From Roseateles aquatilis (GTDB taxonomy: Bacteria > Pseudomonadota > Gammaproteobacteria > Burkholderiales > Burkholderiaceae_C), in NCBI RefSeq assembly GCF_002205645.1, contig NZ_NIOF01000004.1, forward strand, positions 372,001-436,000: 64,000 nt of DNA, written 5' to 3'. This document shows positions 7,597 through 62,608 of this stretch, piece by piece. Position 1 is the first letter of the stretch, and the number at the start of each line of letters is the position of its first letter. Both the position numbers and the translations under genes were made by a program. A model generated the notes under the pieces. That model was not told the DNA's origin. It searched no databases and saw nothing but the letters and a program-made list of their open reading frames with translations.

Positions 7597-7694
7597 TTTC
7601 GGGATCGATTCGGCGTCGATGAGACAGGGTTGTCAAATGCGCGGTCCTAGGATCTTCATCACTCGCTCACTCGCTCATTCGATGCCGCTCGAAG

Positions 7695-8165: not shown

Positions 8166-8581
8166 AAGTCAACAAGCGCCAAGCCAACGCAACAGCGGCG
8201 CGCGAGCATGCGACACGCGGACTGCCGGATGATCTGCTGCGCTTCTCCTTCAGACACCTACACGCCACATGCAAGTTCGGCCTTGAGCAGATCAGCAATG
8301 CGGCAGGCTACCTGCCGCACCTGCTGCGGCGGTTGCAAAGCATCTCTTCCATGCGACCGAAGGAATTTCTGACCAACAAGGACAAGTCGCTTCGTGCCCA
8401 CGCCCATGAATGGGCGCGCACGACGGAGAAGCTCGGCTATGCCTTGCCCGCTCAGTGGCAGTCCTGCCCTGCCTGGCAATTCCAGCTCAGCGCCAACGAA
8501 CACGGCCGCGTGCACGGCATCCTGGTCGACGAGGTCTTCTACGTCGTCTGGCTGGATCCCGAACACCGTCTGCACCCGTGA
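8162..8581 (+). CDS. Candidate PanT-type toxin paired with the Panacea protein
   Basis: 139 aa, no family name I can assign with confidence. Recognisable blocks are [11 protein letters not shown] at residues 24-34, a [19 protein letters not shown] segment in the middle, and a C-terminal [20 protein letters not shown] followed by [12 protein letters not shown] recall small proteins with this HEW and HGxxxDxxFYVVWLD layout beside Panacea antitoxins; this was not checked. No signal peptide or membrane segment. The 4-nt overlap and matching operon order make it the likely toxin. The mechanism is unknown. Confidence 0.65.
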
Positions 8582-8673
8582 GGCGTCGGGCCCCGACGCA
8601 TCCCCTACACTCCCATGCCAACCACCCACCGCAACGCCCTCCCGCCGAGGGCGTTGCCCATTTCCCGACCCCG

Positions 8674-11271
<2,598 letters not shown>

Positions 11272-12193: not shown

Positions 12194-14002
<1,809 letters not shown>

Positions 14003-14054
14003 TCGACCGGGTCACCGGGACTTCAGGATTCAACGTTCAGGAAAGACACCGCCC

Positions 14055-14342
14055 ATGCCCGCCTTCATCATCGCCGACGTCACCGTGACGGATGCCGCCC
14101 AGATGGCGCTCTATCGCGAATGGAGCACGAAGGCGATGCAGGAGCATGGCGCGGAGGTCCTGGTCCGCGGCGGCGAGTTCGAGGTGCTGGAAGGCCCCTG
14201 GACGCCGAGCCGCCTGGTGGTCCTGAAGTTCCCCGACCGCGCCGCGGCCAGGCGTTTCTATGAATCCGAGACCTACCAGCACGCCAAGTCGCTGCGCGAG
14301 AACGCCGGCGTCATGCGCATGATCGTGGTCGACGGCGTCTGA
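14055..14342 (+). CDS. DUF1330 family protein
   Basis: 95 aa dimeric alpha/beta-barrel (ferredoxin-like) protein of the DUF1330 family, with PAFIIADVTVTD at the N-terminus, the central EVLVRGGEFEVLEG and LVVLKFPDRAAARRFYES. Such proteins are small cytosolic enzymes or binding proteins without a settled function. It lies between pyrG and eno, ends in a terminator and may be read from the pyrG promoter (52 bp gap). Confidence 0.85.
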   Translation: MPAFIIADVTVTDAAQMALYREWSTKAMQEHGAEVLVRGGEFEVLEGPWTPSRLVVLKFPDRAAARRFYESETYQHAKSLRENAGVMRMIVVDGV

Positions 14343-32296: not shown

Positions 32297-32356
32297 GTGC
32301 AACTCGACGGGCCAGTTGCACCGTCAAAACACCCGCAGTTGCACCTGCAGTTGCAC
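32297..32356. repeat. Iteron-like AGTTGCAC repeats between dusA and integrase
   Basis: Direct copies of AGTTGCAC at 32314-32321, 32337-32344 and 32349-32356 plus one inverted copy at 32297-32304. Spacing of the direct copies is 23 and 12 bp, about two turns and one turn. They end 13 bp before the integrase start, so they are candidates for integrase/excisionase arm sites or a regulator's operator. Confidence 0.65.
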
Positions 32357-32368
32357 TGGAGAACACGC

Positions 32369-33499
32369 ATGGCATCGGTCACACCCCGAGGCGACAAGTT
32401 CCTTGCTCAAGTCCGCATCAAGCAAGGCGGCGTCGTAATTTTCTCAGAGTCGAAGGTCTTCGACACCCGCGCCCAAGCGACCTCCTGGGGAGAGCGCCTG
32501 GAAGCAAAGGTCAAGGCCGAGGGCCCTGCCCGCCACACATCGTCCAAGACGACGGTCGGGCAGTTGGTGCGCATGCACCTCGAAGCTCAGTTGAAGGTCC
32601 GCCCCCTGCTGGGGAGATCGACCATCCACAACCACGAGAAGATCGCGCAGGAGTTCGATCAAGTTCTCGTCAAAGACTTAAGGCCGAAGCACCTTATTGA
32701 TTATGCCATCCGTCGCAAGACAAAGGACGGCGTGACGCCAGCGACGATCAAGAGCGACCTCTCGCCGGTTTCCGCCGCCTTCGGCGTGGCCAGGATTGCC
32801 TACGAGATTGATGCCGATCCGGAGGTTATCCAGACGGCCATGCATTATCTGGATGAGCAAGGTCTGGTTTCCAAATCGAAGGAAATCATTCGATGGGTTG
32901 ACCAAGAGGAGGAAGACGCCTTACTGGCTGAGTTTGAACGGCGCAATCAGCATCACCAGACCGAAATTGACATGATTTTGGTCTATAAATTTGCGCTGGC
33001 ATTTCCACGCAGGCTGAGCGAGCTTGGTCGCTTGGAATGGAAAGATATTGATTCTAAGCGCCGCACGATCATTATTCGGAAGGTGAAACATCCGAAGCGG
33101 AAGGAATACAACGACCAGACCGTGCCGCTTCTCGCGCCGGCCTGGGATCTCCTACAGATCATCCCAAAATTGGAGGCGCGGGTCTTTCCCCACAACATGG
33201 AATCCGCCTCGGCCGCTTTCGAAAGGGCGCGCAACCGAATTGCCATCACCGGCATGCCGCGCATCAAGGATTTGAGATTCCATGATCTGCGACATACAGG
33301 GATCAGCATGCTGTTCTGGCACGGGTTCCAGATCGCGGAAGTAGCCATGGTATCCGGCCATACCAACTGGAACACCTTGCGGCGCTACACCCATATCCGC
33401 CCGGAAGATTTGCATCGGCGATTCGAGCAACTCAAGCAGGCGGCCCCCTCGAAGTCGGCGCCGCATGCTGATCTCTCGCGCAAAATGGCGAACGATTGA
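32369..33499 (+). CDS. Tyrosine-type site-specific integrase of a dusA-linked element
   Basis: 376 aa tyrosine recombinase. The catalytic set is visible: Arg in FPRRLSELGRLEWKDID, the beta-hairpin Lys region IRKVKHPKRKEY, HDLRHTG (His, Arg), GHTNW and the nucleophile Tyr in RRYTHIR. The N-terminal half has an Arm/SAM-like DNA-binding region (MASVTPRGDKFLAQVRIKQG). The start at 32369 is preferred to an overlong reading from 32297 that runs through the repeats. Position head to head with dusA fits integrases known to insert at the dusA 5' end. Confidence 0.92.
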   Translation: MASVTPRGDKFLAQVRIKQGGVVIFSESKVFDTRAQATSWGERLEAKVKAEGPARHTSSKTTVGQLVRMHLEAQLKVRPLLGRSTIHNHEKIAQEFDQVLVKDLRPKHLIDYAIRRKTKDGVTPATIKSDLSPVSAAFGVARIAYEIDADPEVIQTAMHYLDEQGLVSKSKEIIRWVDQEEEDALLAEFERRNQHHQTEIDMILVYKFALAFPRRLSELGRLEWKDIDSKRRTIIIRKVKHPKRKEYNDQTVPLLAPAWDLLQIIPKLEARVFPHNMESASAAFERARNRIAITGMPRIKDLRFHDLRHTGISMLFWHGFQIAEVAMVSGHTNWNTLRRYTHIRPEDLHRRFEQLKQAAPSKSAPHADLSRKMAND

Positions 33500-49010: not shown

Positions 49011-50780
49011 TCAATCTTCCGGCACCAACCCGTTTTCTCGCAGCAATACACCGATCTGGGTGCCGTCGAGTTTCTTCAGCAGGCGATCGCGCAGGAATGC
49101 AGGGATACCGGCACCCACGGGTTTCCCGTCGCGCAACGTATGGACCGCCGCCAGCAAGGTGCGGATGTCGTAAGTGGAATTGAACACTTCCGGCACGCCG
49201 CGTTCGACATTCAGCAGGGTGTAGACCGCCTCCATCGGCGTGCGCACCGAATACTCCGTGGTGAAGATGCAGTCCCGCTGTTTCGACTCCGCGAACTGGC
49301 CGATAAAGGCGAAATTGACCGCGCCCTGCGGCACCACGTCCGGCCGATCACCCGTCTGACGCGGCATGAAGAACGCGGTGATGTAGGGCATCATGGTGGG
49401 GACCGTGCTGGCGCCCGTCGCGGCGAGTTCGGGAATGTCTTCGACCGGCACGCCGAGGTGGTACAGCCACTCCTGAGTGATTTCCTCACCGGTGCATTCC
49501 TGCATCGGCTTTTTCACATAGTCGCCCGGCTTGTCGACGAAGAGCGCGTAGAACCACGCGATCATCTGGCCCTTCGGCTGTTTCTTGAAATGCGGCTGCC
49601 GGTGGACCGTCCAGCTCAACAGCCAGCTTGAATCCTTCACCGTCACGATACCGGCGGAGACCACCTTGCCGGTGAACGGATTGCGCTTCGTGATCTTCTC
49701 CACCTGTTGCGCAATCCGCGGGTGGAAGGCGGTGATCGACGCGGAGGCCCATTTCGTCTCGGGGATATGCGCGCCGAACACGTCGGGACGGCCGAACGAG
49801 GGATCCTTGGCAGCAATGCGGCGCCACAGATCCCAAGCCGGTGCCGGACCGTCCTTCAGCTTGGCCGGCGTGTGGTGATCGCCATTGTCAGAATTCTCCG
49901 TCAACGATCCGATGGTGACGAAGACGAGATCGTCGGGGCCGAGGTCGACACCGCCTTGCACGCCGTTTTCGACCCACTGAATGCGGGTCGCCTGCTTGCG
50001 GTCCTGCTGGATATCGAAATCGACATCGGTGACCTCGACGCCGTAGCGGAACTGGACGCCATGGTCGGTCAGCCATTTGACCAGCGGCAGAACCATCGAC
50101 TCATACTGGTTGTACCGGTTGAATTTCAGCGAGGAGAAGTCCGCCAAACCGGCGATGTGATGGATGAAGCGATGGAGATAGAGCTTCATCTCCAGGGCGG
50201 AATGCCATTCCTCGAAGGCAAACATCGTGCGCCAGTAGAGCCAGAAATTGCTCTTGAGGAAATCCTCGCCAAAGACTTCATTGATCCGTTTGTTCTCCAT
50301 CTCTTCGCGCGTCGCCAGGAAGACGGAGATCAAGTCCTTCTGCGCTTGGTCGTTCAGCGTCAGCAGCCCCTTGTCGGGCACGTCCTGGCCCTGGTTCTGC
50401 GTCGTGCGCTGAAATGAAATGTTGGGATCGTCTTTGTTGAGGCGGTAGAACTCGTCGAGGACACTGGCATCTTCGATCTCCAGCGATGGGATCGAGCGAT
50501 AGAGATCCCACAGGCACTCAAAATGTTCTTCCATCTCGCGGCCGCCGCGAATGACGAATCCCTTTTTGGGAACGTCAAGACCGTCGAGCGCGCCGCCCGG
50601 AATGGCCAGTTCCTCGAGGATGGTGATCTTCTCTCCCGCGACACCGCCGTCTCGGATGAGGAAAGCGGCGCCTGCAAGCCCGGCAAGCCCCGATCCCACG
50701 AACCAGGCCGTCTTCCTGTCCGCGCCCTCGGGTTTGCGGGGACGGACGAATGCCTCATAGTTTCCACTGCTGTAATGCAT
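49011..50780 (-). CDS. ohyA: Oleate hydratase
   Basis: 589 aa FAD-containing hydratase that adds water to the cis-9 double bond of oleate, giving 10-hydroxystearate (also acts on other unsaturated fatty acids). FAD motif WFVGSGLAGLAGAAFLIRDG; substrate and catalytic parts in GFVIRGGREMEEHFECLWDL and NISFQRTTQNQGQ; also WMSWTVHRQPHF-like text (LLSWTVHRQPHFKKQPKGQM) and FIGQFAESKQRDCIFTTEYS. No signal peptide. Last gene of a TetR-HAD-ohyA string on the minus strand. Confidence 0.93.
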   Translation of the reverse strand: MHYSSGNYEAFVRPRKPEGADRKTAWFVGSGLAGLAGAAFLIRDGGVAGEKITILEELAIPGGALDGLDVPKKGFVIRGGREMEEHFECLWDLYRSIPSLEIEDASVLDEFYRLNKDDPNISFQRTTQNQGQDVPDKGLLTLNDQAQKDLISVFLATREEMENKRINEVFGEDFLKSNFWLYWRTMFAFEEWHSALEMKLYLHRFIHHIAGLADFSSLKFNRYNQYESMVLPLVKWLTDHGVQFRYGVEVTDVDFDIQQDRKQATRIQWVENGVQGGVDLGPDDLVFVTIGSLTENSDNGDHHTPAKLKDGPAPAWDLWRRIAAKDPSFGRPDVFGAHIPETKWASASITAFHPRIAQQVEKITKRNPFTGKVVSAGIVTVKDSSWLLSWTVHRQPHFKKQPKGQMIAWFYALFVDKPGDYVKKPMQECTGEEITQEWLYHLGVPVEDIPELAATGASTVPTMMPYITAFFMPRQTGDRPDVVPQGAVNFAFIGQFAESKQRDCIFTTEYSVRTPMEAVYTLLNVERGVPEVFNSTYDIRTLLAAVHTLRDGKPVGAGIPAFLRDRLLKKLDGTQIGVLLRENGLVPED

Positions 50781-50810
50781 GACGATCTCTCTTTCTTGCG
50801 TGCTGATTGA

Positions 50811-51674
50811 TCAATTGGCGGATTTGTAGCTGTAGAAACCCTCGCCGCTGGCGATGCCCAACTTGCCCTTGTCGATGTAGTTCTCCTTCAGCCATGCGGC
50901 GAGCTGCCGGGCGTGCTCATCGCCGTGGGAGAGGATGTTGTGGGGCGTGGTCAGGCCGATGACGTCATAGATCTGGAACGGCCCCAGCGGCGCGCCGGTG
51001 GCGATGCGCCAGACCTTGTCGACGTCGTGCGGGTCGGCATAACCGCCGGCCGCCAGTTCGGCCGCCGCGTTGAGCAGCGGCACCAGCAGCGAGTTGAGCA
51101 CGTAGCCGGCCTTCTCCTTGCGCACCGGGATCGGCACCATGCCGATCGCGGCGGCGAAGGCGACCACCGCATCGAACACGGCCGGGTCGGTGTCCGCTGT
51201 GCCCATCACCTCGGCGGTTTTGAACTTCCAGATCTGGTTGGCTAAGTGCAGCGCCAGGAAGCGATCCGGCCGGCCGGTGGAATCCTTGATGGCGCTCGGC
51301 AGCAGGGTCGAGGAGTTGGTGGCGAAGATGGTCCTGGCGGGGGCCAGGGTGGCAAGTTCTTGATAGGTCTGCTGCTTGAGCTCAAGCACTTCAGGGATCG
51401 CCTCGATCACCAGGTCGGCCTCGGCCACGGCCGCGCCCAGGTCGGTGAAGGTGACGATGCGCGCCAGCGCCGCGTCGGTCTTGGCGCTGTCCGAGCCGGG
51501 CACGTCCTTCGCGTAGGTCGCAGCCAGACCAGCGAAACGCTGCTGGGCCTGTTCCAGGGCCGCCTCGCCGATGTCGTAGGCGCTGACGTCGAAGCCGCTG
51601 TAGGCCGTCTGAAAGGCGATCTGCGCACCCAGCACACCGGTGCCCAGTACCGTCACCTTGCTGATGGTACTCAT
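50811..51674 (-). CDS. 3-Hydroxyacyl-CoA dehydrogenase family protein (possible secondary alcohol dehydrogenase)
   Basis: 287 aa. Rossmann domain with VTVLGTGVLGAQIAFQTAYS and ADLVIEAIPEVLELKQ; FATNSSTLLPSAIKDSTGRP; C-terminal helical domain with KAGYVLNSLLVPLLNAAAEL. Family member of 3-hydroxyacyl-CoA dehydrogenases. It resembles in layout the long-chain secondary alcohol dehydrogenase of Micrococcus luteus used on 10-hydroxystearate (my recollection, unchecked). Start overlaps the TetR stop by 4 nt (ATGA), and ohyA follows 30 bp later, so it is in the fatty acid operon. Substrate: 3-hydroxyacyl-CoA or 10-hydroxy fatty acid. Confidence 0.87.
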   Translation of the reverse strand: MSTISKVTVLGTGVLGAQIAFQTAYSGFDVSAYDIGEAALEQAQQRFAGLAATYAKDVPGSDSAKTDAALARIVTFTDLGAAVAEADLVIEAIPEVLELKQQTYQELATLAPARTIFATNSSTLLPSAIKDSTGRPDRFLALHLANQIWKFKTAEVMGTADTDPAVFDAVVAFAAAIGMVPIPVRKEKAGYVLNSLLVPLLNAAAELAAGGYADPHDVDKVWRIATGAPLGPFQIYDVIGLTTPHNILSHGDEHARQLAAWLKENYIDKGKLGIASGEGFYSYKSAN

Positions 51675-52369
51675 CGTGTCGCTCCTGTGGGTGAATGTCG
51701 CTTCCGTCTGGACGCCGGGACACCCGCTGTCAGTCCGGCCAGATAGCCGTCCACGATCTGCCGGATCTGCGCACGCAGGTCCTCCATCGGGGAGTGGCCG
51801 GGATGCGCGCCGGTCGAGGCGCGCGAGACCGCCAAGTGCGCCGCCGCGAACACCGAGATGCTGGCCAAGCGGGCCGCATCCGGCTGCGGGGGGCAGTCCG
51901 ATCGTTCCGCGTGCGCGGTCAGACGCGCGGCGATGGCCGCCTCCAGATCGGCGATGAGCGCCAGACCTTCCAACCGATACTTCTCCGTGGGCGAGCCGAA
52001 CATCAACTGGCGTTGATAGACCGCCAGGTTCTCGGCATGCAGGCGTCCCAGTTCCAGGATCGGTTCCACCATCGCCGCGATGCTGTCCACCAGATCTGGC
52101 AAGCGACTGGCTCGCTCGGCGCCCTGCGCCAGCGCAGCGCGCAGTTCCTGGTTGTAGACCATCAGCAACAGCGCGTCCTTGGATGCGGCATAGCGGAACA
52201 GCGTGCCGGCCGCGATGTCGGCGCGTTCGGACACCGCTTGCGTGGTCACCCCGCCGAAGCCGCGCTCGGCGAACAGGTGAGCGGCCGCGCGAAAGATGCG
52301 CGCATGCTTGTCGGGCATGTTGCGTTCGCGCCGGCGAGGGGCTGCAGATGCGCGCGGAGCTATGACCAT
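51671..52369 (-). CDS. TetR-family regulator of the oleate hydratase operon
   Basis: 232 aa from ATG 52369 (GGGA upstream); starts at 52381 and 52318 are possible. HTH: ARIFRAAAHLFAERGFGGVT and AGTLFRYAASKDALLLMVYN. The rest is the ligand-binding domain with a typical helix bundle. Its stop overlaps the HAD start, so it is co-translated. Operator candidate at 52384-52403. Probably a fatty-acid-type sensor; the ligand is inferred from the operon. Confidence 0.88.
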   Translation of the reverse strand: MVIAPRASAAPRRRERNMPDKHARIFRAAAHLFAERGFGGVTTQAVSERADIAAGTLFRYAASKDALLLMVYNQELRAALAQGAERASRLPDLVDSIAAMVEPILELGRLHAENLAVYQRQLMFGSPTEKYRLEGLALIADLEAAIAARLTAHAERSDCPPQPDAARLASISVFAAAHLAVSRASTGAHPGHSPMEDLRAQIRQIVDGYLAGLTAGVPASRRKRHSPTGATR

Positions 52370-52383
52370 TACGGATCCCATCG

Positions 52384-52403
52384 TTAATGACTAAACTCAT
52401 TAA
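52384..52403. promoter_or_regulatory. TetR operator palindrome
   Basis: Perfect inverted repeat TTAATGA-CTAAAC-TCATTAA, 7-bp arms and 6-bp spacer, immediately upstream of the TetR gene. Its size and position fit autoregulation of TetR-HAD-ohyA. Confidence 0.7.
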
Positions 52404-52456
52404 TAACTATACGGCACTTGATTCCACAATTGCCGAGCCGATCGTTAAGTCGCCAG

Positions 52457-52690
52457 ATCCGCATCTTCATGGCCACCGGGGACGGCAAAACGACCGCACG
52501 CGCGGTCGCAGGGAGCCTGGGCATCGATGAGGTGCAAGGTCAATCCGGCGGACAGACTGGCTTTGGTCGAACGACTGCAACGCGAGGGCCGCGCAGTGGC
52601 GAAGGCGCGGCGACAGCATTGACGACGCCCGGCGCTGGCGCGTGCGGGAGTGGGCGTTGCGTAAGCAATGGGATGGACGCTCTCCAACCG
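52457..52690 (+). pseudogene. Degraded P1B-type metal-transporting ATPase fragment (CopA-like)
   Basis: Reads IRIFMATGDGKTTARAVAGS then LGIDEV in one frame, then KVNPADRLALVERLQREGRA in the next, then GDSIDDA and a rest of VGVA...NGMD. These are the P-domain signatures of copper-type ATPases (TGD, the GDGINDAPALA motif and the following GVAMGxGTD), with several small deletions shifting frames. The phosphorylated Asp region, membrane parts and metal-binding domain are absent. Clearly dead. Confidence 0.75.
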
Positions 52691-52841
52691 TAGACGGCAT
52701 CGAAGTGCCTCGGTGGAAGTGTCAACAGCCACTCGATCCGCAAGAAGCGTCTCCCATGGAGATTACGACGAGCGGGCTTGATTTGGGCCCAGAACGTGTT
52801 CCAGGTTCACGGTGTCCGCCCTTCTTCGCCCACCTGTCGGC

Positions 52842-53030
52842 CTGCATGTTGGGATCGAGGCCCGTGCCAGCGCTCATCACTGGACGCGCAAGCTGCAGGC
52901 GCTGGGTCATACGGTACGGCGGATGGCCTCTCCGTTCATCAAGCCGTACGTCAAGCGCAACAAGAACGATGCCGCGGATGCTGAAGCGATCTGCGAGGCG
53001 GTGGCCCGGCCCTCGATGTACTTCGCTGAA
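52842..53030 (+). mobile_element. IS110-family transposase fragment
   Basis: GIEARASAHHWTRKLQALGH, PFIKPYVKRNKNDAADAEAI and CEAVARPSMYF are the N-terminal DEDD-type (RuvC-like) catalytic domain of IS110/IS1111 transposases. Only about 63 codons remain; the C-terminal half is missing. It lies between the metal-ATPase relic and the cycloalkanone cluster. Confidence 0.8.
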
Positions 53031-53577
53031 GCGCCGCCGCTCATGGCTCAGTTCGACGAAGCGCTGGCTCGTCACTTGGCCGTGCTGTGCACGCTAGGGC
53101 GGGTCCACCCGGTCGTCTTCTGCGAGATGCTCTTTGGAACTCCTAACTCCAAGGGAACCTCCTCCGCTCGAAGGTAACTTGACTGAACCAGCGGCGAACA
53201 CATGCTGCGCCCCGGGCGCCAGGCCGAGTACATCGTTTGCGGGGCCGGGGGACGACGCAGCGTAGACACACGCAGCTCTCGGGCCAGGCAACGGGAACAC
53301 GAAACACGAGAGCGCACTCACGACCTGCCTCGATGAGATCGATCGAATCCTGATTAGATCGCTCAAGCCGGCAGAGATGCCTCTGCGCGCACCAGCCTCA
53401 CTTCGCCCTTGATCGTGCAGCCCGCGGCGCGGCGCCATAGCGCAAGCCGTCGAGAAACACCGCCACTAGCCCATCACTGCGCATTTCCTTCAACACGCCT
53501 GACCCGGACGTTCAAGACCACCCGGGCGCCTGTGCCGACCATACCGTCACCCCAAACAACACGAGATGGAGACAAGC
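53031..53577. other. Intergenic region upstream of the cycloalkanone cluster
   Basis: About 540 bp, no recognised gene. It should contain the promoter of the chn-type operon. Short frames (a 37-codon one near 53,403-53,515 on the minus strand reads VAVFLDGLRYGAAPRAA) have no name. Just before the hydrolase start GGAGACAAGC provides a good ribosome site. Confidence 0.5.
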
Positions 53578-54480
53578 ATGGGCAATACTGACCAGTCAGA
53601 TTTCCTGCGAACCCTGTACCGATCGTGGTCGGACCGCATGGCGGCCAACCCCGAGATGACCATTGCCGACCTGCGCAGCCTGTTCGACGAATGGCATCAA
53701 TCGACGCTCGAGCCCGAGGGTGTGACCTACAAGTCGGACGTTCTGTCGGGCGTCGACGCCCTCTGGGCTTTGCCGGTCGGCGCCGACACGAAGAAGGTCA
53801 TCCTTTACACCCACGGCGGCGGCTTCGCGGTCGGGTCGGCCGCGAGTCACCGCAAACTCGCCGGGCACCTGGCTAAGCACCTGGGCGTTACCGCCGTGGT
53901 GATCGACTATCGCCGTGCGCCGGAGCATCCCTTCCCGGCGCAAATCGAGGACGCGACGGCCGTTTACAAGGAGCTGCTGTCGCGTGGTTTCAAGCCGACA
54001 GACATCACCACCAGCGGCGACTCCGCCGGGGGCAATCTGGCCATCGCCACAGTGCTGAAACTGCGCGCCGATGGCGTGGCGCTGCCGGGGGCCGTGATCG
54101 CCTTCTCGCCCTGGCTCGACATGGAGCACGTCGGCAAGACCCTGCAGACCAATGCGGCAACGGACGCCCTGGTCAGCAAAGCCATCCTCGAAGGCATGTC
54201 GGGCATGTTCCTCGGCGAGAAGGGCTCGCGTGTCGATCCGCTCGCCAATCCACTGAAGGCCGACTACACGGGCTTCCCGCGCCTGTACATCAACGCCGGT
54301 GAAGTGGAGACCCTGCTGGACAACGCGCAGGACCTGGCGCGCATTGCGAAGGCGGCCGGCGTGTCCGTCACCTTGTCGGTGGTCGCTGGCATGCAGCACG
54401 TCTTCCCGTTCCTGGCCGGCAGGGCCGCCGCGGCGGACGATGAACTGCGTCGCATTGCCCAGTGGTTCAAGAGCGCCTGA
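53578..54480 (+). CDS. chnC: HSL-type alpha/beta hydrolase, likely lactone (caprolactone) hydrolase
   Basis: 300 aa hormone-sensitive-lipase type esterase. Oxyanion HGGGFAVGSAASHRKLAG, nucleophile in TSGDSAGGNLAIA, and a late GMQHVFPFLAG supply the triad (Ser, Asp, His). In cyclohexanone pathways the BVMO product lactone is opened by an esterase of this type. First gene of the plus-strand cluster, 42 bp before the BVMO gene. Start at 53578 rests on GGAGA; a codon at 53566 is possible. The gene symbol follows the pathway role and is less certain than chnB/chnE. Confidence 0.82.
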   Translation: MGNTDQSDFLRTLYRSWSDRMAANPEMTIADLRSLFDEWHQSTLEPEGVTYKSDVLSGVDALWALPVGADTKKVILYTHGGGFAVGSAASHRKLAGHLAKHLGVTAVVIDYRRAPEHPFPAQIEDATAVYKELLSRGFKPTDITTSGDSAGGNLAIATVLKLRADGVALPGAVIAFSPWLDMEHVGKTLQTNAATDALVSKAILEGMSGMFLGEKGSRVDPLANPLKADYTGFPRLYINAGEVETLLDNAQDLARIAKAAGVSVTLSVVAGMQHVFPFLAGRAAAADDELRRIAQWFKSA

Positions 54481-54522
54481 GCGCTCCCCACAGCCCCAAA
54501 AAAACGCACAGGAGACATCCCC

Positions 54523-56118
54523 ATGAGCAACGAACATGGCTTCGACGCCATCGTGATCGGCAGCGGCTTCGGCGGCATCTACATGCTGCACAAGCTGCGC
54601 AACGAACTCGGGCTGAAGACCCGCGCCCTCGAGAAGGGTGGCGGCGTCGGCGGTACTTGGTACTTCAACCGCTACCCGGGCGCCAAGTCCGACACCGAGG
54701 GCTTCGTCTACCGCTACTCCTTCGACAAGGATCTGCTGCAGGAGTGGGACTGGAACACCCGCTACCTGGAGCAGCCCGACATCGAGAAGTACCTCAACCA
54801 CGTCGTCGATCGCCACGATCTGCGCCGCGACATCCAGTTGAACACCGAAGTGACAAGCGCGGTGTTCGACGAGGGGCGCAAGCGCTGGACCGTCCGCACG
54901 AACAAGGGCGAGGTCTTCACCTGCCGCTACCTCGTCACGGCCCTCGGCCTGCTGGCCAAGAGCAACATCCCCGACATCGCGGGTCGCGACAGTTTCGCCG
55001 GCCGCACGGTGCACACCAATGCGTGGCCGAAGGACCTGGACATCACCGGCAAGCGCGTCGGCGTGATCGGCACCGGCTCCACCGGCACCCAGTTCATTGT
55101 CCAGGCCGCCAAGATGGCCAGCCACCTGACGGTGTTCCAGCGCTCGCCGCAGTACTGCGTGCCCTCAGGCAACGGCCCGGTGGGTCAGGCCGAGGTCGTC
55201 GAGACCAAAAAGAACTTCGACGCGATCTGGGACCAGGTGCGCAACTCGGTTGTCGCCTTCGGCTTCCAGGAAAGCGGCATTGAGGCGATGAAGGTCTCCG
55301 ACGCTGAGCGCGAGCGCGTCTTCCAGGAGAACTGGGACAAGGGCAACGGCTTCCGGTTCATGTTCGGGACCTTCTGCGACATCGCCACCAGCGCCGAGGC
55401 CAACGAGGCTGCGGCGGCCTTCATCCGCTCCAAGATCAAGCAGATCGTCAAGGACCCGGAGACCGCCCGCAAGCTCTGCCCGAGCGGCCTGTACGCCAAG
55501 CGTCCGCTCTGCAACGAGGGCTACTACGAGACCTTCAATCGCGACAACGTCAGCCTGGTCTCGATCAAGGAACACCCGATCGACCGCATCACGCCCAAGG
55601 GCATCCTGACCGCCGACGGCGTCGAACACGAACTCGATGTGTTGGTCTTCGCCACCGGCTTCGACGCGGTGGACGGTAACTACCGCTCGATGGACCTGCG
55701 CGGCCGCGGGGGCAAACACATCAACGAGTACTGGGCCGACGGCCCCACCAGCTATCTGGGCCTGTCGACGCATGGCTTCCCGAACATGTTCATGATCCTC
55801 GGGCCCAACGGCCCTTTCACCAACCTGCCGCCGAGCATCGAAGCGCAGGTGGAATGGATCGGCGAAGCGATCGGCCACGCCGAGCGTGCGAAGGTCTCGA
55901 CCATCGAGCCGACGCGCGAGGCCGAGCAGTCCTGGACCAAAACCTGCGACGACATCGCGCACATGACGCTGTTCCCGAAGGTCGACTCGTGGATCTTCGG
56001 CGCCAACATCCCGGGCAAGAAGAACGCCGTGATGTTCTACATGGCCGGCATCGGCGCCTACCGGCAGCAGCTCGATGCGGTCAAGAGCAAAGGCTACGAG
56101 GGCTTCGCCCTCGTCTGA
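54523..56118 (+). CDS. chnB: Baeyer-Villiger monooxygenase, cyclohexanone monooxygenase type
   Basis: 531 aa (Acinetobacter CHMO 543). FAD fold DAIVIGSGFGGIYMLHKLRN; Baeyer-Villiger fingerprint FAGRTVHTNAWP; NADPH fold VGVIGTGSTGTQFI; CHMO-like blocks GGTWYFNRYPGAKSDTE, YAKRPLCNEGYYETFNRDNV, FATGFDAVDGNY and FMILGPNGPFTNLPPSIEAQ, and WIFGANIPGKKN near the end. Converts a ring ketone to a lactone with NADPH and O2. Similarity to Acinetobacter CHMO is judged from memory. Within the cluster, it follows the esterase and precedes the outer-membrane protein. Confidence 0.95.
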   Translation: MSNEHGFDAIVIGSGFGGIYMLHKLRNELGLKTRALEKGGGVGGTWYFNRYPGAKSDTEGFVYRYSFDKDLLQEWDWNTRYLEQPDIEKYLNHVVDRHDLRRDIQLNTEVTSAVFDEGRKRWTVRTNKGEVFTCRYLVTALGLLAKSNIPDIAGRDSFAGRTVHTNAWPKDLDITGKRVGVIGTGSTGTQFIVQAAKMASHLTVFQRSPQYCVPSGNGPVGQAEVVETKKNFDAIWDQVRNSVVAFGFQESGIEAMKVSDAERERVFQENWDKGNGFRFMFGTFCDIATSAEANEAAAAFIRSKIKQIVKDPETARKLCPSGLYAKRPLCNEGYYETFNRDNVSLVSIKEHPIDRITPKGILTADGVEHELDVLVFATGFDAVDGNYRSMDLRGRGGKHINEYWADGPTSYLGLSTHGFPNMFMILGPNGPFTNLPPSIEAQVEWIGEAIGHAERAKVSTIEPTREAEQSWTKTCDDIAHMTLFPKVDSWIFGANIPGKKNAVMFYMAGIGAYRQQLDAVKSKGYEGFALV

Positions 56119-56405
56119 CGCCAAGGTGTAGCCACCGGCCAGCCCGACACCCGGGCGGGCTGAGAGTGCATGGGTTCTTCGTGCCACGCCGCTTCGCCCG
56201 ATGGGCGCCGTGAGCACCAGCATGCCGAACACATCGTGCCCAAACGTGGCCACACCGACCTCGTGACTGGGAGCAACACCGTCACGCGGTCGTGACCGCG
56301 GCCATGGCCGTCACTGCACGCCTGGCTGGCGAAGAGCTCTGCATGAGGCACGAACCGACCTCAAGGAGTTCCCGATCCATGAACAACGACTCTGGAGACA
56401 AGAGA

Positions 56406-57305
56406 ATGACGAAAGCCCTCAAGCCCCTCAGGCCCCTCACGGCCATTGCAGCCGCCGCAGCCTCACTGGCGCTGACGGCGCCGGCCCGCGCCATCGACCT
56501 CGATGCCGGCGACTACACGGCCTTGCCTGCCGGCACCAACGCGCTCGTCGTGTATGGCCAGCACGCCACGCGCGACAAGCTGTACAGCAAGGGCGACCAG
56601 GTGCCGATCCATCCGGGGCTGGACTCGGATATCGGCATCCTGCGTGGCGTGCACTTCATGGAGGTCGGTGGCCTCATCATCGATCCGCAGTTCCTGCTGC
56701 CATTCGGGCGCCTGAAGGGCAAGGACGATACCGCCGCGCTGGGCTCGTCGAGCGGCGTGGGCGATCTCATCCTGGCCTCGGCGATCTGGTTCACCCAGCC
56801 CGGCGCAAAGACGCACTTCGCCGTGACGCCCTACCTGTGGCTGCCCACCGGCAAATACAACCGCAACGACCCACTGAGCCTGGGCGAGAACCGCTACAAG
56901 TTCGCGCTGCAGGTGGGAAGCATCCACGAGCTGGCACCGGGTGTGAACCTGGACCTGGCGGCCGACGTCACCTTCTACGGCAAGAACACGGATGCAAACA
57001 ACGGCGCTGGCGGCGCGACGACGTTGAAGCAGAAGCCGCTGCTCGCGCTGCAGTCGCACTTGCGCTACCAGCTCAGTCCGACGCTCGATCTGCGCGGCGG
57101 CCTGTTCTACACCGCCGGCGGCGAGACCAAGCTCGGCGGCGTGGACCAGGACAACCGCCAGGCGACGACCAAGTTCAACGTCGGCGCCGGTTGGTTCGTC
57201 GCGCCCACGACGCAGCTGCTCGCCACCTATGGCCGCGACATCAAGGCGCGCGAGGGCTTCAAGGTGAACAACCAGCTCAACCTGCGCCTGTTGACGCTCT
57301 TCTGA
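56406..57305 (+). CDS. Outer-membrane transporter of the phenol-degradation/SphA family
   Basis: 299 aa with a signal peptide ending in ALTAPARAID and a beta-strand-rich rest (FALQVGSIHELAPGVNLDLA, PYLWLPTGKYNRN). It fits the PF13557 family of barrel proteins found beside aromatic and solvent degradation genes. Two ribosome sites are plausible: AAGGAG before ATG 56379 and GGAG before ATG 56406; the latter gives a normal signal peptide. It probably lets hydrophobic substrate in. It ends LRLLTLF, a terminal Phe. Confidence 0.83.
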   Translation: MTKALKPLRPLTAIAAAAASLALTAPARAIDLDAGDYTALPAGTNALVVYGQHATRDKLYSKGDQVPIHPGLDSDIGILRGVHFMEVGGLIIDPQFLLPFGRLKGKDDTAALGSSSGVGDLILASAIWFTQPGAKTHFAVTPYLWLPTGKYNRNDPLSLGENRYKFALQVGSIHELAPGVNLDLAADVTFYGKNTDANNGAGGATTLKQKPLLALQSHLRYQLSPTLDLRGGLFYTAGGETKLGGVDQDNRQATTKFNVGAGWFVAPTTQLLATYGRDIKAREGFKVNNQLNLRLLTLF

Positions 57306-57381
57306 GCCTCGGCCCCGCCAGCCCGGGTCCGCTGCCCGTCATTCGAACCAGAACCACGACGCATCGAAGGAGAGACACACC

Positions 57382-58446
57382 ATGCGCTGCTATTGCGTCA
57401 TGCACCACGGCCAGCCGCTTGAGCTCGTCGAGAAGGACATTCCAACACCGGTGGGCACGGAAGTCCTGGTCCGCGTGACGGCCGCGGGTCTGTGCCACAC
57501 GGACCTGCACATCTGGGAGGGCTACTACGACCTGGGCGGAGGCAAGCGCTTGAACCTGGCGGACCGGGGAATCAAGCCGCCGCTGGTCCTCAGCCACGAG
57601 ATCTGCGGCGAGGTGGTGTCCGCCGGGGCTGCCGCGGGTGATATGAAGCCGGGCGGCCGCTTCGTGATCCATCCGTGGATCGGCTGCGGCACCTGCCCGA
57701 CCTGCCTGCGCGGCGACGAGAACATCTGCCTGAAGGGGCGCGCCCTCGGCGTGGCGCGGCCGGGCGGCTTTGCGGACTACGTGCTCGTGCCTCACCCGCG
57801 CTACCTCGTCGACATTGAGGGCCTCGACGGGGCCGAGGCGGCACCGCTGGCCTGCGCGGGCGTGACCACCTACAGCGCGATCAAAAAACTGGGCGACGGC
57901 ATCCGGAACGAGCCCGTGCTCATTATCGGTGCCGGCGGCCTGGGCCTGATGGCCATCGAGGTGCTGAAGGCCTTGGGAGGGATAGGCGCGATCGTCGTCG
58001 ACATCGATCCAGCCAAGCGCGAGGCTGCGTTGGCGGCCGGTGCCTTGGCAGCCATCGACGGGAAGGCACCGGATGCGGCGCAGCAGGTCATCGCGGCGAC
58101 CGAGGGCGGTGCCGGCCTGATCCTGGACCTGGTAGGCGCCGCGCCCACCGTCACGCTGGCGATGCAAGGTGCACGGCGTGGCGGGCACATCGTCATCTGC
58201 GGGTTGATGGGCGGCGACCTCACGGTGTCGCTGGCCACCATTCCGCTGCGCCCGCTGTGCATCGAGGGCAGCTATGTCGGCAACTTGGCTGAACTGCGCG
58301 AACTCGTGGACCTCGTGAAGCGGACCGGCATGAAGCCGATCCCGGTGTCGCGCCGCCCGATGGACCAGGTGAACCAGGCCATCGCCGACCTCCACCACGG
58401 GCGTGTCATCGGTCGCATCGTCCTCGCTCCTGAATTCGCTCACTGA
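57382..58446 (+). CDS. chnD: Zinc alcohol dehydrogenase, 6-hydroxyhexanoate dehydrogenase type
   Basis: 354 aa medium-chain Zn dehydrogenase. Catalytic zinc: GLCHTDLHIWEGYYDLG and SHEICGEV; structural zinc Cys set CGTCPTCLRGDENIC; NAD site VLIIGAGGLGLMAIEVLKAL. The N-terminus MRCYCVMHHGQPLELVEKDI is very like ChnD of Acinetobacter (from memory). Oxidises the omega-hydroxy acid from lactone opening to the semialdehyde. 76 bp after the SphA-like gene. Confidence 0.9.
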   Translation: MRCYCVMHHGQPLELVEKDIPTPVGTEVLVRVTAAGLCHTDLHIWEGYYDLGGGKRLNLADRGIKPPLVLSHEICGEVVSAGAAAGDMKPGGRFVIHPWIGCGTCPTCLRGDENICLKGRALGVARPGGFADYVLVPHPRYLVDIEGLDGAEAAPLACAGVTTYSAIKKLGDGIRNEPVLIIGAGGLGLMAIEVLKALGGIGAIVVDIDPAKREAALAAGALAAIDGKAPDAAQQVIAATEGGAGLILDLVGAAPTVTLAMQGARRGGHIVICGLMGGDLTVSLATIPLRPLCIEGSYVGNLAELRELVDLVKRTGMKPIPVSRRPMDQVNQAIADLHHGRVIGRIVLAPEFAH

Positions 58447-58614
58447 CGCGCGTTGTACGTCGTCACTGCTTCCGTTCCAACAGCCCATCGCGAGACCCGT
58501 GAATCACCTTGCGTTGAACGCGCCCAGCCCGGGCGATCCGGGCCCGGCCCGGTCTGCGTGCGTACTGCTGCACCTGCCCTAAGGCAGCCACTTCGACATC
58601 TCTGGAGAAAACCA

Positions 58615-60048
58615 GTGCAATACCCACAGCTCAACCTCTACATCGACGGGCAGCTGCTGCGTGGCGAGGGCCGCCAAGAGCAGGACGTGCTGAACCCGGC
58701 TACCAACGAGGTCATTGGCCAGTTGCCACACGCCACGCAGGCCGATCTCGACTCGGCGCTGGCCTCGTCGCAGCGCGCCTTTGCGGCCTGGCGCACGGTC
58801 TCGGCATTGGAGCGTTCGCAGCTGCTGCGCAAGGTCGCCGCGGGGATCCGCGAACACGCACCGGCGATCAGCCGCAACCTGACCCTGGAGCAAGGCAAGC
58901 CCCTGGCCGAAGCGCTGGGCGAGGTGATGAGCTGCGCCGAGCACGCCGAGTGGCATGCCGAGGAAGCGCGACGCATCTACGGCCGCCTCATTCCGGCCCG
59001 CGACGCCCGCGTCCAGCAGACGGTGCTGCGCGAGCCCATCGGCGTCTGCGTGGCCTTCTCGCCGTGGAATTTCCCGTTCAGCCAGGCCTTCCGCAAGGTG
59101 GTGGCGGCGATCGGTGCGGGCTGCACGGTCATCCTCAAGGGATCGAGCGACACACCCGCCTCGGTGTTGGCAATCGCCAAGGTGTTCCACGACGCCGGCC
59201 TGCCCCCGGGTGTGCTCAACGTCGTATCCGGCGACTCGGGCATGATCTCTGAGCACCTGATCCGCTCGCCGATCGTGCGCAAGATCTCGTTCACCGGGTC
59301 GACGCCGGTGGGCCAGCGGCTGGCGGCGCTCGCGGGGGCCAAGATGAAGCGCAGCACCATGGAACTGGGCGGCCACGCACCGGTGATTGTTTGTGACGAC
59401 GCTGACATCGACCAGGCCGCCAAGGTGCTGGCAGCCTTCAAGTTCCGCAACGCCGGGCAGGTGTGCATCTCGCCCACGCGCTTCTATGTCCAGGAGGGCG
59501 CCTACGCCCGCTTCGTCGACCGCTTCGTGGGACAGGTCGAAGCCCTGAAGGTGGGTGATGGCCTGGACGAGGCCACGCGTATGGGCCCGCTGGCGCAACG
59601 CCGCCGCGTGGCGGTGATGGAGAGCTTCGTCGAGGACACTCGGCACCGTGGCGGCCAGGTGCTGACGGGCGGCAAGCGCCTGCCCGGTAACGGCAACTTC
59701 TTCGCACCGACCGTACTGGCTGAACTGGAGGACGATTCGCGCTTCATGACGGAGGAACCCTTCGGTCCGATCGCCGGCATCGTCTCGTTCAAGTCCGTGG
59801 ACGAGGTGCTGGTGCGCGCCAACAGCCTGCCCTTCGGGCTCGCTTCGTATGCGTTCACCACGTCGCTGAAGAATGCCCACCAGATCTCCCGCGGGCTGGA
59901 GGCGGGGATGGTCTCGATCAACCACATCGGTCTTGCACTGGCCGAGACCCCCTTCGGCGGCGTCAAGGAAAGCGGCTACGGCAGCGAAGGCGGAAGCGAA
60001 ACCTTCGACGGCTACCTGACCACCAAGTTCATCTCGCAACTGAGCTGA
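58615..60048 (+). CDS. chnE: NAD(P)-dependent aldehyde dehydrogenase, 6-oxohexanoate type
   Basis: 477 aa. GTG start at 58615 with GGAG 8 bp upstream; a longer frame from 58453 has no homology. [46 protein letters not shown] and the catalytic Cys in [19 protein letters not shown]. Late text [20 protein letters not shown] and [12 protein letters not shown] match ChnE closely. Oxidises 6-oxohexanoate (or a related semialdehyde) to the diacid. 169 bp after chnD, 23 bp before the CoA-transferase gene. Confidence 0.92.
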
Positions 60049-60070
60049 ACGCGGACCAGCGAGGACCGAC

Positions 60071-61291
60071 ATGGGTGCCCTAAGCCATCTGCGTGTGCTG
60101 GACCTGACCCGCGTGCTCGCCGGTCCCTGGTGCACGCAGACGCTCGCCGACCTCGGGGCTGAGGTCATCAAGATCGAGCGGCCCGGCGCGGGCGATGACA
60201 CGCGCCAGTGGGGGCCGCCGTATGCGAAAGACGCCGAAGGCCACCCCACGAGCGAGGCGGCCTACTACCTCGCGGTCAACCGCAACAAGAAGTCGGTCAC
60301 GCTGGACATTGCAACGCCTCAGGGGCAGGCGTTGGTGCGCCAACTGGTGGCGCAATCCGATGTGCTGGTCGAGAACTACAAGGTCGGTCAATTGGCCCGC
60401 TACGGCCTGGACTTCGACAGCCTGCGGGCCATCAAGCCCGACTTGATCTACTGCTCCATCACGGGCTTCGGTCAGACCGGCCCCTACGCACCACGTCCGG
60501 GCTATGACTTCATCGTGCAAGGCATGGGCGGCTTCATGAGCGTCACGGGCGAGCGTGACGAACTGCCCGGTGGGGGCCCGCAGAAGGCGGGAGTCGCGAT
60601 TGCCGACCTGTTCACCGGGGCGCACGCCACCATCGCCATCCTGGCCGCACTGGCGCATCGCGAGCGCACTGGAGAAGGTCAGCACCTCGACATCTGCTTG
60701 CTGGACGTGCAGGTGGCAATGATGGCCAACATGGCCACCAGCTTTCTCGCGACCGGCGAACCGCCAAAGCGCTGGGGCAACGCACATCCGAACATCGTGC
60801 CATACCAAGTGTTCAAGGTTGCCGACGGCTGGGTGATCGTGGCCTGCGGCAACGACGGCCAGTACCGCAAGCTGGTCGAGGTGGCGGGGCAGCCCTCTCT
60901 GGCCGACGATGAACGCTTCGCGACCAACCCGCAGCGCATTCGCCACCGGGAGGTCCTGATCCCGCTGCTCGAACCCCTGCTGCTGAGCCGGAGCCGCGCG
61001 CGATGGTTGGCCGAACTGGAAGCTGCGGGCGTGCCCTGCGGTTCGATCAACGACCTCGCCGAGGTTTTCGCCGACCCTCAGGTCGTCGCGCGCCGCATGC
61101 AACTCGACATGGCGCACCCGACCGCTGGTCAAGTCAGCTTCCCGGCCAGCGCGTTGAAGCTGAACGGCACGCCAGTCGAGTACCGCCTGCCGCCGCCCTT
61201 GCTCGGGGAGCACACCGATGCAGTGCTGAGCGAGTTGGCCGGGATCTCATCCGCTGAACTGCAGGACCTGCGTCGCAGCCAAGTCATCTGA
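60071..61291 (+). CDS. CaiB/BaiF family III CoA-transferase
   Basis: 406 aa. LSHLRVLDLTRVLAGPWCTQ, ADLGAEVIKIERPGAGDD and SITGFGQTGPYAPRPGYDF are standard; the catalytic Asp is D179 in AGVAIADLFTGAH. It moves CoA from a donor to a carboxylic acid. Placed directly behind chnE, it probably activates the dicarboxylate (adipate) to its CoA ester for beta-oxidation. That is unusual: cyclohexanone clusters I know leave activation to genes elsewhere. GAGG 7 bp before ATG. Confidence 0.9.
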   Translation: MGALSHLRVLDLTRVLAGPWCTQTLADLGAEVIKIERPGAGDDTRQWGPPYAKDAEGHPTSEAAYYLAVNRNKKSVTLDIATPQGQALVRQLVAQSDVLVENYKVGQLARYGLDFDSLRAIKPDLIYCSITGFGQTGPYAPRPGYDFIVQGMGGFMSVTGERDELPGGGPQKAGVAIADLFTGAHATIAILAALAHRERTGEGQHLDICLLDVQVAMMANMATSFLATGEPPKRWGNAHPNIVPYQVFKVADGWVIVACGNDGQYRKLVEVAGQPSLADDERFATNPQRIRHREVLIPLLEPLLLSRSRARWLAELEAAGVPCGSINDLAEVFADPQVVARRMQLDMAHPTAGQVSFPASALKLNGTPVEYRLPPPLLGEHTDAVLSELAGISSAELQDLRRSQVI

Positions 61292-61666
61292 CGCTCCCTG
61301 CGCTAGGCCTTCATCGAGGCCCTGATGCAGCGCGGCACGGCCCCGGTGTTCACGACGCTCACGATGACGATCGCCGCCGCCACCTGGGTCTCCGAGGCGG
61401 GGTGGCCGGTGCTCGGTGCCGGCCGCACCCGCCGCACCGAACCTGAAAAAGCCCAAGAACCAGAGCACAGGGCGAATCGCGGGGATATTCACGCCGCCTT
61501 GGACGCTCCTAAACAACGGCCCTCTCCACTTCTCAACGCTTTCCATCGGGAGACGCCAGCCTTCAGCGTCGCCGACTGCGACCTGGAGGTCGATCGCTTG
61601 AGGCTGTGGTGGGACTCGCCGGGACGCTCGGACGGTGCTCCGGACGAAGGTTGGACGAATTGCCGG
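61292..61666. other. 375 bp between the CoA-transferase and the AraC gene
   Basis: No gene recognised. The frames crossing it are GC-rich shadows. It separates convergent genes. No hairpin terminator stood out. Confidence 0.4.
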
Positions 61667-62608
61667 TTAGCGGCTCGAAACGTCGATCTGATTGATCGGC
61701 CCCGGCGCTTCCAGAGGACGCCCGGTGAGCGTGCTCCGGTACTCGGCGGGCGTCTGCAGGAAGGCGCGCTTGAAGTGGCGAACCAGATGACTCTGGTCGG
61801 AAAATCCGCAGTCCGTGGCAATGCACTTCAGCGGCTCGCCAACCGGACGCGCCAGCAGGCGCCGCGCACGCTCCAGGCGCTGGCGGAGAACGTAGGCATG
61901 GGGTGAGCAGCCGAACTCGACGCGAAATTTTCGGATCAGCCCGGACACGCTGACGTTGGCCTCGCCCGCCAACTCGTCGAGCTTGAAATTGCGTTCCAGA
62001 TTGTCTTCGACATACTGCACCAGGCGTCGCCGCTGCCACTCGGCCATGCGACCCGCCAGCGGCACTTCGCGGACTCCGGCCTTGGCGTAGCGGCGAAGCA
62101 GGTGGATGCACAGCTGGTTCACCAGTGCCGCGCGGTAGAGATTGCCGCCGAGCCCGCCGCTGGTCAGTTCGTTCTCGAAGGCCATCATCAGGCCCGGCAG
62201 GATGTGATCTTCGGCCCGGACCCGGTCTTCCATGCCGATCTCGCTGACGCGGCGCTCGAAGACATCCTCGGCAACGCGGCATAGTTCGACCTGTGACAGG
62301 TAGATGTGGCCAACGTCGATGGGGCGGTCCCACCGCCACTGCGAGGATTCGCCACGGGTCAGCAACGAACACACACCGCGGCCGACGTGCTCGCTGCGCC
62401 AGGGTCCGCCGGCGCGCCGGCTCATGACGGCTTCGTCGCCCTTGTAGCAAACGAGCATGTAGTCGCGCATCGAGGGGATGGCGACGTCGAGCGCGTCGTA
62501 GCGGTAGCCCTTGACGGTCACCTGCTCCCACCCGGACGCTGCGCTGTCGAGCGTCAACTCACCGGGGATCCAGTGGGGTACTTCGTCAGGTGCGATCAGC
62601 TTGTTCAC
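61667..62608 (-). CDS. AraC-family regulator, ChnR-like
   Basis: 313 aa. C-terminal two-HTH domain: VEDNLERNFKLDELAGEANV, LIRKFRVEFGCSPHAYVLRQ, IATDCGFSDQSHLVRHFKRA and FLQTPAEYRSTL. The N-terminal domain (VPHWIPGELTLDSAASGWEQ and VTVKGYRYDALDVAIPSMRD) resembles the inducer domain of ChnR-type activators, from memory. It faces the cluster from its right end and likely activates it in response to the ketone. Confidence 0.87.
   Translation of the reverse strand: MNKLIAPDEVPHWIPGELTLDSAASGWEQVTVKGYRYDALDVAIPSMRDYMLVCYKGDEAVMSRRAGGPWRSEHVGRGVCSLLTRGESSQWRWDRPIDVGHIYLSQVELCRVAEDVFERRVSEIGMEDRVRAEDHILPGLMMAFENELTSGGLGGNLYRAALVNQLCIHLLRRYAKAGVREVPLAGRMAEWQRRRLVQYVEDNLERNFKLDELAGEANVSVSGLIRKFRVEFGCSPHAYVLRQRLERARRLLARPVGEPLKCIATDCGFSDQSHLVRHFKRAFLQTPAEYRSTLTGRPLEAPGPINQIDVSSR

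Follow-up and report, generated by a model that had tools for sequence, protein, structure and literature searches.

Positions 49011-61291 of a 64,000-nucleotide stretch of a Roseateles aquatilis contig (NZ_NIOF01000004.1; this whole stretch is hereafter called the window) encode an oleate hydratase (OhyA), a protein with the 3-hydroxyacyl-CoA dehydrogenase fold (HAD), an esterase, a Baeyer–Villiger monooxygenase (BVMO), an alcohol dehydrogenase (ADH), an aldehyde dehydrogenase (ALDH) and a CoA-transferase. The original prediction, made from the sequence alone, had joined these enzymes into one route for the cleavage of oleate. The results presented here make it very probable that the region instead holds two unrelated catabolic modules side by side: a TetR-HAD-ohyA operon predicted to form 10-ketostearate, and a cyclohexanone-type gene set predicted to degrade a cyclic ketone. 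The gene content, the gene families and the borders of the modules were read from the sequence, as was the separate occurrence of the modules in other genomes. Substrates, regulation and flux direction are predictions.

Separate occurrence and possible separate control of the two gene sets

All seven enzyme genes lie side by side as intact reading frames spanning 12.3 kb, as originally described, and the family scans of the window proteins were concordant (oleate hydratase, HAD NF006143, alpha/beta-hydrolase, flavin-containing monooxygenase [FMO]-like protein, zinc ADH, ALDH and CoA-transferase III). Three further genes, which the original prediction did not list, encode a TetR regulator, a MetA-type outer-membrane protein and an AraC regulator. 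Two oppositely directed gene sets separated by gene debris had been claimed, and this is what was found: TetR-HAD-ohyA on the minus strand (module 1, 49011-52381) and esterase-BVMO-outer-membrane protein-ADH-ALDH-CoA-transferase on the plus strand, followed by the minus-strand AraC gene (module 2, 53566-62608). The debris at 52.4-53.5 kb contains only short broken frames, with a weak hint of an IS110 transposase piece at 52812-53177 (Pfam 13.3 bits versus a cut-off of 29, E 0.073) and a piece of a metal P-type ATPase at about 52460-52540 that was labelled by eye only.

Relatives of the BVMO were sought in one genome per species (84,980 species), tblastn matches spanning less than half of the query being excluded from the locus counts, and the best 80 of 118 BVMO-encoding stretches were used. 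The result showed that none of the 80 loci has ohyA in its flanks. A search of 50 of the corresponding genomes in full detected ohyA at E ≤ 1e-60 in three, with 37-41% identity and in no case inside the fetched locus. The pairing of ohyA with a BVMO gene, to which the original prediction had looked for confirmation in other genomes, was therefore not seen in these samples, and the two modules were not found together in the 80 loci or the 50 whole genomes. The DNA comparison (blastn, pieces of 150 bp or less excluded) gave the same division. Similarity to L029 and L030, the closest of the fetched BVMO loci, starts at 53474-53475 and is confined to module 2, while similarity to two alphaproteobacterial plasmids (L114/L115) spans 49052-51665 and that to a Gordonia and a Microbacterium plasmid reaches 52335 and 52288 (into tetR), respectively, in each case within module 1 only. 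Both halves recur as units elsewhere, implying on the evidence of gene neighbourhoods that their presence is more than chance.

The presence of a TetR gene beside module 1 and an AraC gene beside module 2, together with a palindrome found only before tetR, suggests that the modules are under separate control. The second-best site for this palindrome in the 64 kb, at 38392, has three mismatches. No copy was found upstream of the esterase gene in a scan of the same 64 kb, and joint regulation through this element was rejected for that reason. The palindrome was also sought in 11 related loci and found in none, so it is regarded as a candidate operator only.

Table 1. Features of the region, with the BVMO–hydrolase fusions of other loci in the last row (coordinates within each locus)
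Feature	Position	Strand	Evidence or remark
ohyA, oleate hydratase, 589 aa	49011..50780	-	NCBIfam PRK13977, 869 bits vs cut-off 567; PDB kin 4ia5, 7kav
HAD, predicted long-chain secondary alcohol dehydrogenase (3-hydroxyacyl-CoA dehydrogenase fold), 287 aa	50811..51674	-	NF006143, 402 bits vs cut-off 312
TetR regulator, first in ohyA operon	51671..52381	-	PF00440
Palindrome TTAATGA-N6-TCATTAA directly upstream of tetR, candidate TetR operator	52384..52403	.	exact match unique in 64 kb
Junction debris, short broken frames	52404..53565	.	frame reading; weak IS110 hint, by-eye ATPase label
Esterase/lactone hydrolase, hormone-sensitive-lipase family (ChnC-like)	53566..54480	+	NF058651, 256 bits, under cut-off 430
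BVMO, cyclohexanone monooxygenase type (ChnB-like)	54523..56118	+	396/525 identical to TmCHMO 5m0z
MetA-pathway outer-membrane protein, possibly uptake	56292..57305	+	PF13557, 139 bits
Zinc alcohol dehydrogenase (ChnD-like)	57382..58446	+	PF08240/PF00107
ALDH, semialdehyde-dehydrogenase type (ChnE-like)	58585..60048 (start uncertain, likely ~58600)	+	succinate-semialdehyde dehydrogenase (SSADH) TIGR01780, 481 bits, under cut-off 646; nearest PDB 5vbf, 656 bits
Class III CoA-transferase, dicarboxylate type	60071..61291	+	PF02515; succinate-glutarate CoA-transferase model, 505 bits, under cut-off 750
AraC regulator, probably of the chn-like operon	61667..62608	-	PF12833
Phage-type integrase, left edge of lower-GC stretch	32297..33499	+	PF00589, 64 bits
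BVMO-alpha/beta-hydrolase fusions beside HAD	L168 6185-8527; L170 9777-12188; L171 6409-8838; L172 6412-8823; L175 ~6400-8754		780-809 aa where the frame was called

A cyclohexanone monooxygenase-type BVMO and its neighbours

The window BVMO is identical to the cyclohexanone monooxygenase (CHMO) of Thermocrispum municipale (TmCHMO, PDB 5m0z) at 396 of 525 positions (75.4%, 945 bits). It has the BVMO fingerprint FAGRTVHTNAW at residue 158 and the Rossmann motifs GSGFGG at 13 and GTGSTG at 183. By sequence criteria it is a type I BVMO of the CHMO type. Residues T60, L145, L428, P430, F434, T435 and L437 of TmCHMO, named as ligand contacts in the available part of PMC5213842, are all seven identical in the window BVMO. 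The same excerpt describes the TmCHMO cavity as compact, gives cyclopentadecanone and progesterone as non-substrates, mentions that three genes upstream of TmCHMO may serve cyclohexanol degradation, and describes CHMOs as broad in substrate. The original prediction had itself placed the BVMO closest to CHMO and cyclic ketones first among its substrates, and this is the better reading.

Of the 59 loci L029-L087, 55 have an esterase gene immediately 5' of the BVMO gene, the exceptions being L058, L059, L060 and L062. The two closest among the best 80 of the 118 loci, L029 (a Burkholderiales metagenome-assembled genome, 94%) and L030 (Pandoraea eparura, 88%), share the gene order of the window from the esterase through BVMO and outer-membrane protein to ADH and ALDH, which in L029 is interrupted behind the BVMO gene by an insert. 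The zinc ADH homologues are 92% identical in L029 and 86% in L030; the CoA-transferase homologue is 89% identical in L029 and 61% in L030, where it lies about 5 kb past the ALDH gene. An AraC homologue (82%) adjoins the set in L030 and was not seen in L029, and AraC homologues of 46-49% identity stand upstream of the esterase-BVMO pair in L031, L034 and L086. By family and shared order, the lactone hydrolase-, hydroxy-acid ADH-, semialdehyde dehydrogenase- and AraC-type genes that accompany the CHMO place module 2 with the cyclohexanone (chn) type of cluster, their specificities being predicted. Between its BVMO and outer-membrane protein genes, L029 has two extra alpha/beta-hydrolase genes (11467-14071), for which there is no room in the window.

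In L029, the CoA-transferase gene is followed in a row by an acyl-CoA dehydrogenase gene and a FadJ-type gene. Homologues of both lie farther right on the window's contig, at a distance of about 8-11 kb and on the opposite strand (acyl-CoA dehydrogenase, 85%, at window-scale 71252-72412; FadJ-type, 68%, at 69195-71255), and an electron transfer flavoprotein (ETF)-ubiquinone oxidoreductase is encoded at 66266-68131. The gene set of module 2 would fit a flux from a cyclic ketone, of predicted ring size, through lactone, hydroxy acid, dicarboxylate and dicarboxyl-CoA into beta-oxidation. In such a route the CHMO would convert a small cyclic ketone to a lactone, the esterase would open the lactone, and ADH and ALDH would oxidize the resulting hydroxy acid to a dicarboxylate. 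The CoA-transferase would then activate the dicarboxylate (predicted adipate to adipyl-CoA), and the CoA ester would be degraded by the acyl-CoA dehydrogenase and the FadJ-type enzyme encoded nearby.

The HAD gene, its partners and the origin of the region

TetR, HAD and ohyA form one operon: the TetR and HAD frames overlap by 4 nt and the gap from HAD to ohyA is 30 nt. Oleate hydratases share a catalytic Glu (E82 of OhySa) and a GGxxxG lid (PMC8994360, available part); in the window OhyA residue 82 is a Glu and GGALDG stands at 62, both located by the numbering of the window protein itself. The nearest PDB relative of the HAD is the diketoreductase 4dyd (371 bits). According to the available part of PMC7101164, Micrococcus luteus and Nocardia cholesterolicum have HAD-type enzymes that oxidize 10-hydroxystearate with NAD+, and 10-ketostearate is not made by two Nocardia mutants, whose deletion also affects an adjacent regulator gene annotated KstR. 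The resemblance of the window HAD to the primer-coded stretches given in that excerpt was judged by eye only. By family assignment, the window HAD is a putative member of the group of these proven long-chain secondary alcohol dehydrogenases. The conversion of oleate to 10-hydroxystearate and 10-ketostearate by module 1, as originally proposed, is a well-supported prediction because of family membership, the conserved HAD-ohyA adjacency and the published work on relatives. OhyA would hydrate unsaturated fatty acids and HAD would oxidize the product to 10-ketostearate, which probably either feeds normal beta-oxidation or is the end product of a detoxification.

At E ≤ 1e-60, HAD was found among 100 close-relative genomes only in the window's own, and in 2 of 274 genomes of the class, one again the window's own. 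Because it is near-absent in close relatives, plasmids and one family sample were used to follow its distribution. Among 72,556 plasmid records searched at the protein level, 28 have HAD at E ≤ 1e-50, and in 19 of these it lies beside ohyA (12 from fetched loci, seven from coordinates alone). The 19 plasmids, some of them near-identical, come from Pseudomonadota, Actinomycetota and Bacillota, and TetR is immediately 5' of HAD in those of Gordonia and Microbacterium. The family sample comprised 120 genomes of the family to which a Nesterenkonia genome belongs (presumably Micrococcaceae), and HAD was present at E ≤ 1e-60 in 34. A strict HAD-ohyA rule conflicts with several results. In 9 of the 28 plasmid records the fetched stretch showed no ohyA; two of the 19 positives (L155 and L157) have an ohyA relative of 42% identity with a TetR gene in between; and ohyA lay within the 1.5-kb flanks of only one of 30 HAD loci in the family sample. 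Within flanks of about 6-10 kb it was seen in 2 of 11 chosen loci (the ten best and the one with ohyA).

In a HAD tree of 57 rows (rows L187-L190 being second copies of genes already included, small-flank copies swapped for larger ones), the window HAD falls in a group of seven with 100/99 support, six of which lie beside ohyA. Judged from tree and neighbourhoods, the HAD-ohyA link is strong in one HAD clade and not universal. No report of an ohyA-HAD operon was found among the open-licence papers searched, and the word "dehydrogenase" is absent from the available part of the section on ohyA genomic context in Bacillales in PMC11669549. The HAD-ohyA pairs found on plasmids from three phyla, frequently accompanied by TetR, give the kind of enzyme that forms 10-ketostearate a genetic context.

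Two side observations concern the neighbourhood of HAD. A Dyp-type peroxidase and a catalase-annotated protein are repeatedly encoded near it, with or without ohyA (L114 6721-9838, L121 8724-11224, L155 5904-9010, L160 1906-4731); the L114 member gave no Pfam match at 0.001. The Acinetobacter lwoffii plasmid pALWED3.4 (L160 4983-6818) has two tandem HAD copies in one long frame, each 48% identical to the window HAD.

HAD was also found beside BVMO-hydrolase fusions. On a plasmid of Streptomyces sp. NBC_01717 (L168), the genes for TetR, HAD, an FMO-type BVMO/alpha/beta-hydrolase fusion (780 aa) and a long-chain acyl-CoA ligase follow in a row. Four loci of the family sample (L170, L171, L172 and L175) have a HAD 64% identical to the window's beside a similar two-domain gene, and in L170 an EthR-type TetR regulator lies between the two. 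A two-domain search, in which the best eight or fewer candidates per genome were scored, listed seven matches in the 120 genomes; four are beside HAD, and three (G502, G525, G427) are not, arguing against a strict HAD-fusion rule. In the HAD tree, the fusion-linked HADs and the window clade share an 18-row set (95/89 support), and a three-row group without either partner in view is weakly (89/71) closer to the window clade. Other HAD-BVMO neighbours occur in Tistrella pTM3 and an Agrobacterium deltaense plasmid. HAD, ohyA and a BVMO gene occurred together in none of 21 fetched plasmid neighbourhoods (of the 28 plasmids) and none of 11 enlarged ones. No report of a BVMO-hydrolase fusion beside HAD was found among the open-licence papers searched.

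A tentative reading, to which we give somewhat less than even weight, is that HAD is a portable part of two kinds of cluster, one with ohyA (the window and plasmids of three phyla) and one with a TetR/EthR-type regulator and a BVMO-hydrolase fusion. If so, the fusion clusters would be a natural form of the engineered cascade for ketone cleavage in which a single enzyme carries out two steps, and the window would hold the hydratase half only. The HAD-fusion loci, whose substrates may be hydroxy fatty acids or alkane-derived secondary alcohols, may be the natural counterpart of that cascade, and they are a better place to seek natural chain cleavage. Two related loci were noted in passing. The A. 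deltaense plasmid pEL101-243 (L169 5001-10852) encodes HAD, a short-chain dehydrogenase/reductase, a PtlE-like BVMO (691 bits against a cut-off of 1100), a MetA-type outer-membrane protein and AraC. On Deinococcus radiodurans pMP1 (L201 4972-7473), the second part of an 833-aa frame annotated as alpha/beta hydrolase matches the same BVMO type, so that the order of the fused domains seems to be reversed.

Both modules look acquired, since 15 further genomes of the genus gave neither a BVMO of this kind (E ≤ 1e-100) nor HAD (E ≤ 1e-60); ohyA is present in eight of them, in two at 80% and in six at 41-44%. Both modules probably lie in an acquired stretch. The GC content drops from about 0.70 to 0.58-0.59 at the integrase gene, suggesting that this is the left edge of an island; the right edge was not found. 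There was no direct repeat of at least 18 nt between the integrase region and about 70 kb to the right, and no tRNA gene in the window, L111 or L198-L200, and a neat island was rejected on these grounds. None of the 15 genomes matched the left-flank Cys/Met pyridoxal-phosphate gene at E ≤ 1e-120, so no empty site was found in the genus.

Alternative readings and known systems

The rival that follows from the original prediction is a full cascade, in which OhyA, HAD, BVMO, esterase, ADH, ALDH and CoA-transferase would split oleate into a shorter acid and either a hydroxy acid or a diacid. Every enzyme type needed lies within 12.3 kb, and the first four kinds of step are used in engineered cascades, which do employ such enzymes as claimed (M. 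luteus ADH and the BVMO of P. putida KT2440; PMC6035261 and PMC8403116, available parts). Other points also weigh against two separate modules. No BVMO-like protein other than the CHMO was found in the genome (at E ≤ 1e-100 with its own sequence as query and at E ≤ 1e-10 with the Streptomyces BVMO-hydrolase fusion), so any BVMO cleavage of 10-ketostearate here would fall to the CHMO. The absence of ohyA carries little meaning in those of the 80 loci that are short (e.g. 3.9-5.5 kb). However, no co-occurrence of ohyA and BVMO was found in the 80 loci and 50 genomes; the BVMO has ligand contacts identical to those of a compact-cavity enzyme; and the operons are opposed, with different regulators, debris between them and a palindrome that is not shared. 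In addition, the BVMO of the engineered cascade goes by the name of EthA (PMC6035261, available part), whereas the nearest solved kin of the window BVMO are CHMOs, a comparison by enzyme name. The single seven-enzyme route was rejected on the missing co-occurrence and the CHMO ligand contacts, and we consider it highly improbable. Of the original interpretation, the first two steps are supported and the link to the later ones is not; the set of BVMO, esterase, ADH, ALDH and CoA-transferase recurs without ohyA. A tempting natural precedent for a full oleate-cutting cascade is thus removed as unsupported.

With two separate modules retained, each has a rival reading of its own. Module 2 might perform the same chemistry on another ketone, such as a short linear ketone or a cycloalkanone that is larger or carries substituents. 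The described breadth of CHMOs (PMC5213842, available part) would allow this, and the esterase, ALDH and CoA-transferase all score under the cut-off of the nearest curated models, leaving chain length open; however, the CoA-transferase, acyl-CoA dehydrogenase and FadJ-type genes of L029 fit a medium dicarboxylate such as adipate. This alternative is rather unlikely, although it keeps appreciable weight. As for module 1, the HAD could be an ordinary 3-hydroxyacyl-CoA dehydrogenase of beta-oxidation, its proximity to ohyA being irrelevant to 10-hydroxystearate. That name is the one the family models carry, and most of the HAD loci inspected in the family sample have no nearby ohyA (one of 30 and two of the 11 chosen being the exceptions). 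Against it stand the activity of the M. luteus and N. cholesterolicum enzymes on 10-hydroxystearate and the Nocardia mutants without 10-ketostearate, with a deletion that also reaches the regulator (PMC7101164, available part), the HAD-ohyA adjacency across three phyla, and the place of the window HAD in the 100/99 clade with six of seven members beside ohyA. An ordinary beta-oxidation role is accordingly quite unlikely, and a long-chain secondary alcohol dehydrogenase is the preferred prediction.

Among known systems, cyclohexanone (chn) clusters share with the window a CHMO, a lactone-hydrolase-type esterase directly upstream, an ADH, a semialdehyde-type ALDH and AraC; unlike them, the window set has a CoA-transferase and an outer-membrane protein built in. 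The chn nomenclature and the order of these genes in Acinetobacter form the background to the labels used here. With the engineered oleate cascades, which combine OhyA and esterase with the M. luteus ADH and the P. putida KT2440 BVMO, the window shares the first two enzyme kinds; their BVMO is called EthA, and that of the window is of CHMO type (PMC6035261, available part).

The long-chain secondary ADHs of M. luteus (E2D104) and N. cholesterolicum are HAD-type dehydrogenases like that of the window. In Nocardia a TetR-type gene (annotated KstR) adjoins the ADH gene, as tetR does in the window, but the ADH gene (PROKKA_03439) lies apart from both ohy genes (PROKKA_00231 and PROKKA_02988; PMC7101164, available part), whereas in the window tetR, HAD and ohyA form one operon. 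A likeness in gene order is seen with plasmids of Agrobacterium pusense, Gordonia, Microbacterium and Leuconostoc, in which HAD directly precedes ohyA as in the window, with identities of 48-78% for HAD and 54-90% for OhyA. TetR is upstream in the first three, as in the window, and none adjoins the Leuconostoc pair; in the Agrobacterium form, unlike the window, a 4HBT thioesterase gene sits between TetR and HAD.

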